Positions 10,960 to 64,000 of a DNA stretch of 64,000 nt are shown in pieces. The notes beneath the pieces were generated by a model. The model did no database searches. It saw only the letters and a program-made list of their open reading frames with translations, and was not told where the DNA came from. Made by a program: the position numbers and the translations under genes. Source of the stretch: an uncultured bacterium (GTDB lineage Bacteria > Cyanobacteriota > Vampirovibrionia > Gastranaerophilales > Gastranaerophilaceae). The DNA is taken from positions 1 to 64,000 of the forward strand of contig CASFGU010000003.1 of assembly GCA_949294395.1 (NCBI GenBank). The letters run 5' to 3'. Every line of letters starts with the position of its first letter. Position 1 is the first letter of the stretch.

Positions 10960-11100
10960 CGACAGAAAAGTGAAGCGTGAATTGTGAGGAGTGAAGGGTA
11001 CGACAAAGTTGAAATGTTGAAATGTTGAAGGGATGAACGGTTTAATATTAGTAATGTAGGTTGGATTAGTAAATCCGACCTGCGACTGAACGCCCTGTCG
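10960..11100. repeat. Composite repeat cluster (locus B)
   Basis: From 10970 to 11040 the sequence reads GTGAAGCGTGAATTGTGAGG, then AAGTTGAAATGTTGAAATG and GGGATGAACGGTTT. At 11058-11081 is the palindrome GGATTAGTAAATCC with AGGT/ACCT ends. The same order of units is found at 56335-56420. It separates upp from the amidase gene; nothing else is visible in this 285-bp gap. Confidence 0.8.
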
Positions 11101-39240: not shown

Positions 39241-39939
39241 TCAATAGTTAAACGGGCTTTTTTCCGCTGCGCGAACAGTTTCAATGTCCGGAAGAAGCTT
39301 TTCAAAGACTTCAAGAACCGGAATTTCACTTTCAAAATGTCCGGTATCAAAGAGGACAATCGGGCTTTCAAGCGCCATGTGAAACTTTATATCGCCTGTA
39401 ATGAGTGCGTCTGCACCTTTTTCAAAGGCTTCTTCTATAAATTCCGAGCCGCTTCCCGCACAGAAGGCAAGTTTATTTAATTCTTTAATCCCGTGGTTAT
39501 TTACGTAGCGGAGATTTGGCGAAAGGTTCAGAAGTCTGTCACGCAGTTCATCTATAGAAATTTTTACATCTGTAAATCTTAAAAAATCAGAGGTTTCACT
39601 CACCTCAAATCCGAGTTTTGCAACAAGTGTGTCTGTTGTTCCGCCCTGTGTGCGGTCGAGGTTTGTGTGGGCTGTGTAGATGTCAATATACGGCTGCAGA
39701 GATTCTGAAACAAGTTCAGAATGACAATTTATTGAAAACATCGGGTGGTGGGAAATTATCATATCGCAATTTTGTTGAATCGCCTGTCTTATTATATCTT
39801 CTGTTACTGTGAGACAGAGCATAATTTTGTTAATTTCTGATCTGTTTGTTTCAACTGCCCATCCCGAACAGTCCCAGCTTTCCGCAAGTTCTGGCGGCGC
39901 AAAGCTTTCAATCCTTTTTACAATTTCGTATTTATTCAT
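39241..39939 (-). CDS. Nif3-like dinuclear metal-centre protein (with in-frame palindromic insert)
   Basis: This is the NIF3/YbgI (GTP cyclohydrolase I type 2-like) family, hexameric proteins with two metal ions. Motifs are SHHPMF near residue 64, HTNLDRTQGG near 91, GSGSEFIEEA, ITGDIKFH and DTGHFESE. The 232 residues match the shorter family form. Residues 71-81 (N-C-H-S-E-L-V-S-E-S-L) are an insertion between the H-H and H-T-N-L-D motifs, encoded by a palindromic repeat at 39697-39727. Function of the family is not settled. It is coupled to coaBC by an 8-bp overlap. Confidence 0.9.
   Translation of the reverse strand: MNKYEIVKRIESFAPPELAESWDCSGWAVETNRSEINKIMLCLTVTEDIIRQAIQQNCDMIISHHPMFSINCHSELVSESLQPYIDIYTAHTNLDRTQGGTTDTLVAKLGFEVSETSDFLRFTDVKISIDELRDRLLNLSPNLRYVNNHGIKELNKLAFCAGSGSEFIEEAFEKGADALITGDIKFHMALESPIVLFDTGHFESEIPVLEVFEKLLPDIETVRAAEKSPFNY
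39697..39727. repeat. Palindromic repeat inside nif3
   Basis: GATTCTGAAACAAGTTCAGA with a TGACA end. It is a member of the same family as 40169-40198 and 59576-59640, and it is read in frame. Confidence 0.85.
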
Positions 39940-41128
39940 TTATAACCTTTAAAATTCCGCGTGCGATTTCAGATTTTGATGCGCGTTCAAGTTTTATCAT
40001 ACCGCCGTTTTTATCTAGGATTGTGACTTCATTATAATCGCTTGAAAATCCGATGTCTTTTCTTGAAATGTCGTTTGCGATTAAGTAGTCGCAGCCTTTT
40101 TTTTGAATTTTTTCTTTTGCGTTTGCGAGGAGATTTTCACTCTCTGCGCAGAAGCCGACTATTATTTTGTCATGCTGAACTGGTTTCAGTATCTCTTCGT
40201 TTTTTCTTTCACATAAACTTTTTAAGATGTCGGGATTTTTGACAAGTTCAAGCGTTAGGGTGTCATCATCTGTCTTTTTAATCTTTTGTCCGGATATATT
40301 TTTCACCCTGTAATCCGCGACGGCTGCAGCCATTATTATAAAATCAGCAATTTCAAATTCTGCGTTAACAGCCTCCTGCATTTCGATTGCTGATTTTACT
40401 TTTATAATTTTGTAGGGTCTTGCGACAGCGACAGTTGTGATTAACGTGACATCATTGCCGCAGCGGTAAGCCTCATCCGCAAGTGCAATCCCCATTTTGC
40501 CGGAGGAGTAATTTGAAATATACCTTACGGGGTCAATATCTTCAATTGTACCACCTGCAGTGATTACGTATTTTTTGCCTCCGGTTTTTGAGGTAAGAAT
40601 TGCGGCTGCTTCATCGTAAATTTTTTCTAAACTGCAAAGCCTGCCCTTGCCTTCATAGCCGCAGGCGAGGATGCCGCTTTCAGGGTCAAGAATTTTGTAG
40701 CCGCGTGAGGAAAGTTTTTTTAAATTCTCCTGAATTGCAGGGTTTTCCCACATATTACAGTTCATTGCCGGAGCGATTATGACAGGCTTTTTAAATGCGC
40801 AGACGATTGATGTCAGAAGGTTATCACAGATACCTGAGGCAATTTTAGAGATTGTATTTGCTGTTGCGGGCGCGATTATCATAATATCCGTTTCATCAGC
40901 GTAAGATATGTGTTCCGGTTTGAAATCCGGAATGTCAAATTCATCGACACCGACTTCGTTCTGGCTGAGGTTCCGTAGTGTTAATTTAGTGACAAAGTTT
41001 AAGGCATTCGTAGTGCATACAACACGGACGTTTGCCCCTTTTCGTTTGAACATTCTTATAAGTTCACAGATTTTATAAGCTGCAATTCCGCCGCAGATGC
41101 CGATTAGAATATTTTTCCCGCTCAGCAT
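39932..41128 (-). CDS. coaBC: Bifunctional phosphopantothenoylcysteine decarboxylase/synthetase CoaBC (with in-frame insert)
   Basis: CoaBC makes 4'-phosphopantetheine for coenzyme A: CoaB joins Cys to phosphopantothenate, and CoaC decarboxylates. The CoaC half shows GICGGIAAYK, PAMNCNMW near 120 and the active Cys C156-G-Y-E-G-K-G-R-L. The CoaB half shows ITAGGTIEDIDPVRYISNYS near 189-208 and AAAVADYRVK. Residues 311-321 (E-E-I-L-K-P-V-Q-H-D-K) are an insertion encoded by a palindromic repeat between two conserved motifs. The order gmk-coaBC resembles many bacteria. It overlaps gmk by 7 bp. Confidence 0.95.
   Translation of the reverse strand: MLSGKNILIGICGGIAAYKICELIRMFKRKGANVRVVCTTNALNFVTKLTLRNLSQNEVGVDEFDIPDFKPEHISYADETDIMIIAPATANTISKIASGICDNLLTSIVCAFKKPVIIAPAMNCNMWENPAIQENLKKLSSRGYKILDPESGILACGYEGKGRLCSLEKIYDEAAAILTSKTGGKKYVITAGGTIEDIDPVRYISNYSSGKMGIALADEAYRCGNDVTLITTVAVARPYKIIKVKSAIEMQEAVNAEFEIADFIIMAAAVADYRVKNISGQKIKKTDDDTLTLELVKNPDILKSLCERKNEEILKPVQHDKIIVGFCAESENLLANAKEKIQKKGCDYLIANDISRKDIGFSSDYNEVTILDKNGGMIKLERASKSEIARGILKVINE
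40169..40198. repeat. Palindromic repeat inside coaBC
   Basis: TGTCATGCTGAACTGGTTTC and TCTCTT. It matches the repeat in nif3 in the opposite orientation and is also open in frame. Confidence 0.85.
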
Positions 41129-56290: not shown

Positions 56291-56334
56291 GCTGAAGTTG
56301 TGGGCGGATATATTTGAAATAAATAAGGCTTTTA

Positions 56335-56660
56335 AAGTGAAGAGTGAAGTGTGAGGAGTGAAGGGGTCGTCAAAGTTGAAAGGTTGAAAGGGTGAACGGT
56401 TTGACATTAGTAAGTAGGTCATCAAGAGCAGTATCAAAAACCTCCCTTTGTAAGGTGTCTGTTAACTTTTCATTGCTACCCCTCCTCGAAATCGAAGATT
56501 TCGGTCCTCCCGCAAGGGGAGGACAAAAATCTTAAAATTCAAAGCAATAAAAAGTTAACAATGCCCTTTGTAAGGGAGGTGGCACGAAAGTGCCGGAGGG
56601 TTTTGTTCAACCTTTCAACAGTTCTGCCTGTCGGATTTGTAAATCCGACCTGCCTCTTAT
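56335..56660. repeat. Composite repeat cluster (locus C)
   Basis: From 56336 the order is GTGAAGAGTGAAGTGTGAGG, AAGTTGAAAGGTTGAAAG, GGGTGAACGGTTT (as at locus B), then an inserted unit at 56460-56560. A GGGAGGTGG palindrome follows at 56564-56606 and TGTCGGATTTGTAAATCCGA at 56629-56653, as at locus A. It fills the 455-bp gap; nothing else is visible except the promoter at 56690. Confidence 0.85.
56460..56560. mobile_element. MITE-like element with 18-bp terminal inverted repeats
   Basis: TGTTAACTTTTCATTGCT at 56460-56477 and AGCAATAAAAAGTTAACA at 56543-56560 are inverted with one mismatch. Between them are nested CGAAATCG/GATTTCG and CCTCCC/GGGGAGG hairpins. No coding. It interrupts a CCCTTTGTAA repeat, whose two parts lie on its flanks. 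Confidence 0.55.
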
Positions 56661-61819: not shown

Positions 61820-63043
61820 ATGGTTGAAATAAGACAGGAATTTTTGGAGCAGGCAAAGCATTTAACAAGAAATGCGGAAGTATTACCGGGCGGAATTGAA
61901 GAACTTGCAATCAAATTGCAGCATTCACATGATACAAACACTCCGTTGAGGGTAAAACTCGGTATGGATCCGACAAGACCGGATTTGCACCTCGGGCATA
62001 CCGTTGTTATGAGAAAATTAAGAGAATTTCAAAACCTCGGGCATAAGATTGTATTAATTGTCGGCGGTGCAACCGCAATGGTCGGCGACCCTTCCGGCAA
62101 ATCCGAAACAAGACCGGCTTTAACAAAAGAGCAGGTTGAAGAAAATGCCCAATCTTATTTTGAGCAGATGTCAAAAGTTCTGGATGTTTCAAAAGCGGAG
62201 GTTACAAATAACGCGGACTGGCTGCATAAGATGAGTTTTATTGATTTATTAAAGCTTGCTTCACAGGTAACTGTTGCGCAGATGATGACGCGTGACGATT
62301 TTGCAAAAAGATACGCAGAAGGAAAGCCTATTGCAATTCATGAATTTTTCTATCCTTTAATGCAGGCTTATGATTCAGTGGAAATTGATTCCGATATAGA
62401 ACTCGGCGGAACGGATCAGCGGTTTAATACTCTTCTCGGACGTGATATTCAGGCAGCTTACGGTAAAAAGTATCCTCAGCTTGTAATGCTTCTTCCTTTA
62501 TTGGAAGGTACGGACGGTGTTGTGAAAATGTCAAAAACTTATCCCGAACACTGTATTTCTCTGACGGATTCTGAATTTGATATGTTCGGAAAACTAATGA
62601 GTATTCCTGACAATATGATTTCGAGATACTTCAGCCTTCTGACTGACGCCACAAAAGAAGAACTTGAAACTATAGATAAACAGCTTGCGGAAGGTTCTGT
62701 AAACCCCCGCGACATCAAAATGAAATTAGCATACACAATTACCGCGGAATACCACGGCGAAGAAGGTGCAAAAAGAGGTCAGGACGCCTTTATAAATATA
62801 GTATCAAATAAGGGAATTCCCGATGATATAGAAGAAGTTTCAGGCATGAACGGCAAAGGTATTCTTGATGTGCTGGTTGAACTTAAATTTGTTCAGAGTA
62901 AAGGCGAAGCTAAACGTCTTATTCAGGGCGGCGGTGTAAAGATTAACGGAGAAAAGATTGCCGGTATGGCCTATACCCTTAACCTCACTGAAGATGTAGT
63001 ATTGCAGGCAGGGAAAAGAAAATTCATTAAGTTGAAGGGGTGA
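61820..63043 (+). CDS. tyrS: Tyrosyl-tRNA synthetase
   Basis: It charges tRNA-Tyr. The catalytic HIGH-equivalent is HLGH near residue 50, the KMSKS site is KMSKT near 236, and GGTDQRFN is between. A C-terminal S4 RNA-binding domain has ILDVLVELKFVQSKGEAKRLIQGGGVKING. At 407 residues it is normal. It is the TyrZ-like group by the N-terminal HDTNTPLRVKLGMDPTRPDLH. The ATG at 61820 follows AAAGGAG. The stop codon falls inside a repeat arm. Confidence 0.96.
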   Translation: MVEIRQEFLEQAKHLTRNAEVLPGGIEELAIKLQHSHDTNTPLRVKLGMDPTRPDLHLGHTVVMRKLREFQNLGHKIVLIVGGATAMVGDPSGKSETRPALTKEQVEENAQSYFEQMSKVLDVSKAEVTNNADWLHKMSFIDLLKLASQVTVAQMMTRDDFAKRYAEGKPIAIHEFFYPLMQAYDSVEIDSDIELGGTDQRFNTLLGRDIQAAYGKKYPQLVMLLPLLEGTDGVVKMSKTYPEHCISLTDSEFDMFGKLMSIPDNMISRYFSLLTDATKEELETIDKQLAEGSVNPRDIKMKLAYTITAEYHGEEGAKRGQDAFINIVSNKGIPDDIEEVSGMNGKGILDVLVELKFVQSKGEAKRLIQGGGVKINGEKIAGMAYTLNLTEDVVLQAGKRKFIKLKG

Positions 63044-63057
63044 AAGGTTGAAAAGTC
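63031..63057. repeat. Left arm of an inverted repeat bracketing the four-helix gene
   Basis: GTTGAAGGGGTGAAAGGTTG, then AAAAGTC. 23 of 27 bases match the inverse of 63448-63474. It contains the tyrS stop. Confidence 0.85.
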
Positions 63058-63059
63058 GA

Positions 63060-63449
63060 ATGGTTAATTTAAATGAATCATATAAATTTGGATTTGAAAA
63101 ATTGGATGTTTGGCAAAATTCAATAGAACTGGCAAAACAAATCTATGTTTTAACAGAATCATTCCCAAAAGAAGAATTATACGGGTTAACTTCACAGATA
63201 AGAAGGGCTGTAATTTCTGTTTCTTCAAATATTGCAGAAGGTTCTAGCAAGAATTCTTTCAAAGATCAGGCAAGATTTTCTGAAATATCATTTGGTAGTT
63301 TACTTGAAGTTTTAAATCAAATTATTTTGGCTCGTGAATTGGCTTATATAACAGAGGAAAGCTTTATTTCTTGTCGTAAGAATATTGAAATTATTTCAAG
63401 ACAACTGAATTCTTTGAAGAATTCACAATTAAGCAGAATTATAGATTAA
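63060..63449 (+). CDS. Four-helix-bundle protein (23S rRNA IVS-protein / Avd-like family)
   Basis: A 129-residue protein of the S23/IVP four-helix-bundle family: FEKLDVWQNSIELAKQIY, then FPKEELYGLTSQIRRAVISV and SSNIAEGSSKNS, and a C-terminal helix. Members lie in 23S rRNA intervening sequences or occur free, and relatives act in retroelements, though no reverse transcriptase is here. I chose ATG 63060; a TTG at 63048 is the alternative. It is bracketed by inverted repeats and its stop lies in the right arm. Confidence 0.9.
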   Translation: MVNLNESYKFGFEKLDVWQNSIELAKQIYVLTESFPKEELYGLTSQIRRAVISVSSNIAEGSSKNSFKDQARFSEISFGSLLEVLNQIILARELAYITEESFISCRKNIEIISRQLNSLKNSQLSRIID

Positions 63450-63474
63450 CTCTTCAACCATTCACCTCTTCAAC
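63448..63474. repeat. Right arm of the inverted repeat
   Basis: AACTCTTCAACCATTCACCT, then CTTCAAC. It is the inverse of 63031-63057 and contains the stop of the four-helix gene. Confidence 0.85.
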
Positions 63475-63509
63475 TTTTCATCTTTTGGTAAAATGTAAAG
63501 GACAATAAG

Positions 63510-64000
63510 ATGTTTAAGATACTTAAACGCGGAATAACAAAAGTAAAAGAAGATATTCAGGTAATCTACGACAAAGACCCTGCGGCAGAAAATCTGCTGG
63601 AGGTAATTCTTTGCTATCCGGGGCTGCATGCCCTGATAGCCTATAGGTTTGCCCACAGGCTATACAAATGGCATATCCCTTTAATCCCGCGGATAATTTC
63701 TTATATAACAAGGATTATAACGGGGATAGAAATTCATCCTGCTGCAAAAATAGGCAGAAGGTTTTTTATAGACCATGGTGAAGGTGTCGTAATCGGTGCG
63801 ACAACCGTAATCGGTGATGATGTCTTGATATATCAGCAGGTGACACTCGGCGGAACAGGCAAAGAACACGGCAAACGCCACCCGACACTGGGGCACGGCG
63901 TAATCGTCGGGGCAGGTGCAAAGGTTCTCGGTAATATTACGCTCGGAGATTACGTGAGAGTGGGCGCCGGTTCTGTTGTTGTGGAAGATGTTCCCGAGTA
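63510..64000 (+). CDS. cysE: Serine acetyltransferase CysE (truncated by the window end)
   Basis: This makes O-acetylserine for cysteine synthesis. The visible 163 residues begin M-F-K-I-L-K-R and contain [19 protein letters not shown] and the left-handed hexapeptide helix with [48 protein letters not shown] and [17 protein letters not shown] precedes the ATG. The rest of the gene lies outside the window. Confidence 0.95.

Follow-up and report, generated by a model that had tools for sequence, protein, structure and literature searches.

The tyrS-cysE junction of this genome raises the question of why a small four-helix-bundle gene should stand between inverted repeats inside an operon of protein genes. 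In the window, by which the whole 64-kb stretch of DNA analysed is meant, tyrS, the IVP/S23 gene and cysE are all co-directional, and the locus is made up as follows.

61820 to 63043, forward strand: tyrS, the last codons and stop of which now come from the left arm (KLKG* replacing KLVK*).
63031 to 63070, forward strand: left arm, five 8-bp units GTTGAAGG GGTGAAAG GTTGAAAA GTCGAATG GTTAATTT, holding the tyrS stop and overlapping the IVP start.
63060 to 63449, forward strand: IVP/S23 four-helix-bundle gene, 129 aa from the ATG at 63060 or 133 aa from the TTG at 63048.
63449 to 63486, reverse strand: right arm, an 8-bp array as in the left arm, inverted, of about 4.9 units.
63485 to 63494, forward strand: what is left of the ancestral 3' end of tyrS, TTGGTAAAAT (CTGGTAAAAT at empty sites), pushed beyond the right arm.
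63510 to 63998, forward strand: cysE, the downstream gene of the tyrS operon, present with its start only and continuing past the window.

The arms at 63029-63056 and 63449-63476 are 28 nt each, with 392 nt between them, and are complementary at 25 of 28 positions, which confirms the bracketing of the gene for which the preliminary description had counted 23 of 27 matching bases. The tyrS stop (63041-63043) lies inside the left arm, in unit 2, as had been stated there, and the IVP ATG lies within unit 4 of the same arm. The IVP stop (63447-63449), which had been placed in the right arm, touches that arm by its last base, 63449 being the first base of the arm. The arm unit is the octamer GKTGAANN, and the pattern is found with 0 mismatches in both arms, the expectation in shuffled sequence being 0.02 matches at up to 3 mismatches. 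An equally good inverted repeat with a spacing of 100-1000 bp occurs at only one other place in the window, 39698-40196, and is an unrelated palindromic element. This latter repeat is of the GATTCTGAAACAAGTTCAGAATGACA type and has its halves in or beside two neighbouring genes, and the upstream protein contains the peptide SELVSES, which is typical where palindromes of this sort lie within coding sequence.

The encoded protein is a full-length match to PF05635 (124.9 bits against a cut-off of 33.8; E 2e-36) and to TIGR02436 (113.6 bits against a cut-off of 24), and it matches XCC0516 (2GSC), a homologue of solved structure that forms a homopentameric ring (PMC4990558). IVP is the sole ORF between the arms and no recognisable transposase was found there, nor was any promoter-like site beyond chance found in the element or any Rfam match near it. 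A search of the genome for further four-helix genes sharing these arms, as the preliminary description had proposed, gave none, because the window gene is the only PF05635 gene that the genome has.

Of the 12 other members of the genus, 8 have a clean tyrS-cysE junction of 2-5 nt, and the empty junction by which the cassette reading was to be checked thus exists. As for the rest of the 12, G004 carries the same element, G006 and G007 carry other repeats and G003 is unreadable. The empty form reads ...AAATTCGCCAAACTGGTAAAATAAA-ATG, and the left flank in the window ends ...AAATTCATTAAG(TTG), with the displaced tyrS tail TTGGTAAAAT following the right arm. Since this ancestral tail lies beyond the right arm, comparison of the filled and empty forms shows that the cassette entered tyrS at its final codons, within the tyrS-cysE operon. 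Any target-site duplication would be at most 3 nt at tyrS and perhaps 7-8 nt at groES; the flanks are too diverged, and none is clear. At tyrS-cysE of G006 and G007 (L040, L041), tyrS ends in AAGTTGAAGTTTTAA, which may be a scar, one unit long, left by an octamer element since lost; some 350 nt of unrelated repeats come next.

Elsewhere in the genus, IVP was found with heptamer or octamer inverted arms at rfaE2-lpxD (G006, G007) and at rimP-nusA (G003), both sites being empty in most other members, and at rfaE2-lpxD G003 has the arms without the gene. Across the family an over-cut-off IVP match was obtained in 66 of 288 genomes, and 69 IVP copies were examined, 66 of them lying in sense between two co-directional genes. 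The sites, whose gene identities were taken from protein sequences and ORF lists, were mostly rimP-nusA (22), groES-groEL (15), rfbC-rfbB (about 8), tyrS-cysE (6) and rfaE2-lpxD (5); gatC-gatA, a first identification of one site, was dropped, as the protein sequences show groES-groEL. Within a single genus the groES-groEL site was filled in about 10 genomes, empty at about 11 places and in a decayed state in 1. Occupied and empty states of one and the same locus were seen at groES-groEL as well as at tyrS-cysE, rfaE2-lpxD and rimP-nusA. Among individual loci, the decayed element at groES-groEL (L303, in G306) retains its arms and has its IVP cut to about half, L143 (Candidatus Gastranaerophilales) has arms as in L099, and the IVP genes of L108 and L111, which diverge from the rest as a subgroup scoring about 40 bits, likewise stand between inverted arrays, built of AATGGAAA / AATTGAAA units.

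In 69 of 69 family copies the gene was flanked by inverted arrays with a unit length of 7-9 bp, and relatives in which the gene stands without arms, which the preliminary description had named as speaking against a cassette, numbered 0 of 69. The inverted-repeat score of the family IVP copies had a median of 28 and a minimum of 15, versus a median of 14.5 for neighbouring genes (p 2e-21), and the controls scored 11 (Avd-type genes), 14.5 (GIY-YIG genes), 12.5 (mispaired arms) and 14 (direct orientation). Most elements (46) have a period of 8, while 18 have a period of 7 and 5 a period of 9, and an arm comprises about 4.3 units. The units vary strongly among elements (GTGAATA, AAGTGACT, GACGTTAA, GGCGATAA, AGTTACTAA and others), and the two arms of an element match. 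Arm similarity was 0.63 within an element, 0.30 between different sites of one genome and, where IVP is at least 70% identical, 0.73 for one site compared across genomes, the background being 0.26; the arms therefore follow the IVP lineage and not the host genome. In the IVP tree the clades are mostly site-specific, and tyrS-cysE was colonised twice, by clades unrelated to each other. The clade of the window IVP, with GTTGAA-type arms, is found in different species at tyrS-cysE, at an lpxD junction and between 2-oxoacid oxidoreductase subunit genes. The cassette reading is well supported by the empty junctions and by gene and octamer arms travelling together, and from arms that are matched per element and inherited with the gene we infer that the cassette would make use of the repeats.

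The ends of the window element are complementary, so that a stem is possible (25 of 28 pairs), as in the intervening sequences (IVS) of 23S rRNA. The IVS of Coxiella is 444 nt long, has a 28-bp stem and tandem heptamers before the S23p ORF, and is excised by RNase III; the IVS of Leptospira, Coxiella and Brucella resemble the present element in protein family, size (about 450 bp), complementary ends (about 28 bp) and patchy distribution (PMC4990558). An element of the same kind could act in mRNA, where the arms would pair, RNase III would cut the stem, the excised RNA would carry the IVP message and the operon genes would be uncoupled. Size and anatomy as in Coxiella agree with this, as do the sense orientation inside operons and a predicted RNA fold of the element that is better than shuffles (z -3.7). 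G-U wobble would, however, be expected among the arm differences, and 166 wobble-compatible versus 182 incompatible differences were counted (p 0.42), the one statistical test on which the DNA-versus-RNA argument rests. This count speaks against selection for RNA pairing of the arms but does not decide the matter, and a motif scan placed 0 of the fetched loci within 23S rRNA, so that excision from mRNA is judged unlikely. Unlike the 23S rRNA IVS, the element stands at operon junctions of protein genes such as tyrS-cysE and not in 23S rRNA, and its arms are matched tandem arrays without an RNA-pairing bias in their differences.

In 13 of 14 close IVP pairs dN/dS was 0.00-0.16, the remaining pair being without synonymous change, which indicates that IVP is under purifying selection. 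IVP divergence in the close pairs tracks the divergence of the neighbours, as under vertical inheritance, and neither movement nor a gain at strain level was seen. Spread by horizontal transfer from genus to genus at a given site was considered and found unsupported, IVP being rarely more alike than the neighbours. Purifying selection would also be expected of a host-serving regulatory module, in which the IVP pentamer, much as TRAP does with its triplets, binds a leader array of the mRNA and tunes the operon gene downstream, the module being kept for its benefit and immobile. Repeated placement before nusA, groEL and cysE would suit such a module, as would the 4-5 units per arm, which match a five-fold ring (PMC4990558), but the presence is patchy, other members of a genus having cleanly empty sites, and the operons are very different. 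Moreover, the right arm is complementary in mRNA, and only the left arm could therefore bind as RNA. With these points taken together we regard a regulatory module as distinctly improbable.

Insertion in sense into operons would also fit an RNA intermediate, and a non-autonomous retroelement can be conceived in which reverse transcriptase is supplied in trans and IVP acts like the Avd of diversity-generating retroelements. Avd has structural similarity to the IVP fold (PMC10053308), and the bAvd model gave the window IVP 23.7 bits, below its cut-off, in line with a distant relationship. However, PF00078 reverse transcriptase was absent from all five IVP-bearing genus genomes, this one included, and in the family no association of reverse transcriptase with IVP was found (22/58 with IVP versus 105/230 without; p 0.30), which makes a retroelement very improbable. 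Avd-type genes in the same family are, unlike IVP, without arms (score 11), and IVP elements, unlike Avd, need no reverse transcriptase in the genome. The lack of wobble bias and of any need for reverse transcriptase favours an element at the DNA level, and as the same sequence stands at both ends on opposite strands, recognition is most likely of DNA.

The octamer is also found apart from the gene, with 347 matches in this genome versus 17 for the reversed control. At up to 1 mismatch there were 227 in this genome, 27-42 in G004, G006 and G008, 6 in G007 and 0 in five species; these five are also without an over-cut-off IVP. As G008 has many arrays and no IVP, the association of octamer and IVP holds at the subclade level and is not strict. 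Arms beside unrelated genes, which the preliminary description had likewise held to speak against the cassette, were found in part, as gene-less octamer arrays at many places and, at one site, as a left-arm remnant beside a GIY-YIG gene. At this site, rfaE2-lpxD of G000 and G004 (L228, L227), the GIY-YIG gene is fused to the left heptamer-arm remnant, and GTCATTGCGAGCG...GAAGCAATCC repeats follow. GIY-YIG as a partner gene of the element class was rejected, 30 GIY-YIG genes being without arms (median 14.5) and the right arm being absent at rfaE2-lpxD, and on the same grounds the GIY-YIG gene at that site is read as the replacement of an earlier element. Dispersed gene-less composites were observed in the window at 10960-11045 and 56330-56405 and in L002, L007, L008 and L019; they are made up of four heptamers GTGAAGN and GTWCGACAAA, then 4-5 octamers GKTGAANN in the same direction, and several assembly contigs end in composite repeat clusters. 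A figure legend in PMC10910872 names the 23S rRNA IVP among proteins associated with CRISPR adaptation modules, and going by that legend our guess is that arms built as tandem arrays could be mistaken for CRISPR arrays.

A further 80 loci were drawn from Bacteroidota, proteobacteria, Clostridia, Gemmatimonadota, Neomarinimicrobiota, Planctomycetota, Elusimicrobia, CPR and Methanophagales, and their inverted-repeat score had a median of 22 versus 12 for mispaired arms. About 50 of the 80 scored at least 20, some of these being long low-identity alignments and not arrays, and about one third had no convincing arms at the threshold used. Sense orientation between co-directional genes was found at 59 of the 70 loci where both neighbours were readable. 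IVP loci of cyanobacterial plasmids had inverted arrays of heptamer units in 7 of 8 cases, and 2 of 8 were antisense to their neighbours; sense orientation is therefore a strong tendency and no rule. That two octamer arrays merely happen to flank a small gene in an array-rich genome might be entertained in view of the abundance of the octamer family here, but the arrangement recurs in 69 of 69 family copies, whose units differ, and in other phyla, and with the controls negative such a coincidence has a practically negligible probability.

The cyanobacterial short tandem repeats known as STRR are usually 7-bp tandem units, hairpin-forming and intergenic, and of unknown function (PMC2670836). 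The IVP genes of cyanobacterial plasmids are like them in having heptamer arrays, here as inverted arms; dispersed tandem units occur in the present genome too, but the window arms consist of octamers. We found no earlier work connecting STRR with IVP genes, and no description of IVP genes with array ends outside rRNA was found in the open-access literature. What is novel here is an S23/IVS-type element that lies outside rRNA and has tandem arrays as its ends.

A single gene between inverted repeats, with gene-less repeat copies dispersed in the genome, is also the arrangement of RAYT/REP (the REPtron), but RAYT is a tyrosine transposase and IVP a small four-helix bundle. The cassette looks like a little-known and very small mobile element. 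Our best explanation, which we hold to be reasonably probable, is that the cassette is a compact insertion element, about 450 bp long, with two inverted terminal arrays and one IVP/S23 gene, the ends of which would be read by the IVP ring and cut by another enzyme. The comparisons show the insertion, the general architecture, filled and empty sites within genera and the joint inheritance of arms and gene; mobility and mechanism we infer. Such an element would move rarely to new operon junctions and otherwise stay by descent, with frequent loss. It would survive when landing in sense behind a stop codon, where it would be read with the operon and the arms would give a new stop codon and a purine-rich leader; that the element is without a recognisable promoter would explain its persistence in sense within operons. 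It is a natural guess that the IVP ring, homopentameric in the homologue of known structure, would recognise the 4-5-unit array at both ends, the DNA ends being recognised symmetrically. We know of no nuclease, recombinase or catalytic motif in IVP, and another enzyme would for that reason have to do the cutting and joining.

More tentatively, IVP/S23 genes at large may be the coding members of widespread minimal mobile elements with tandem-array ends, of which the pentamer would read 4-5 units, and dispersed repeats such as STRR and the heptamer and octamer clusters elsewhere may be their gene-less relics or passengers. To our knowledge, no function has been assigned to S23/IVP proteins since their discovery in 23S rRNA insertions. 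The occurrence of the gene with matched inverted arrays, family-wide and in several phyla, ties the function of these proteins to the origin of dispersed short tandem repeats. The pairing of gene and array also yields a prediction of the binding target of IVP, which could be tested in cultured Bacteroidota, betaproteobacteria and cyanobacteria. The element further accounts for small insertions within operons, for example in groESL and rimP-nusA.
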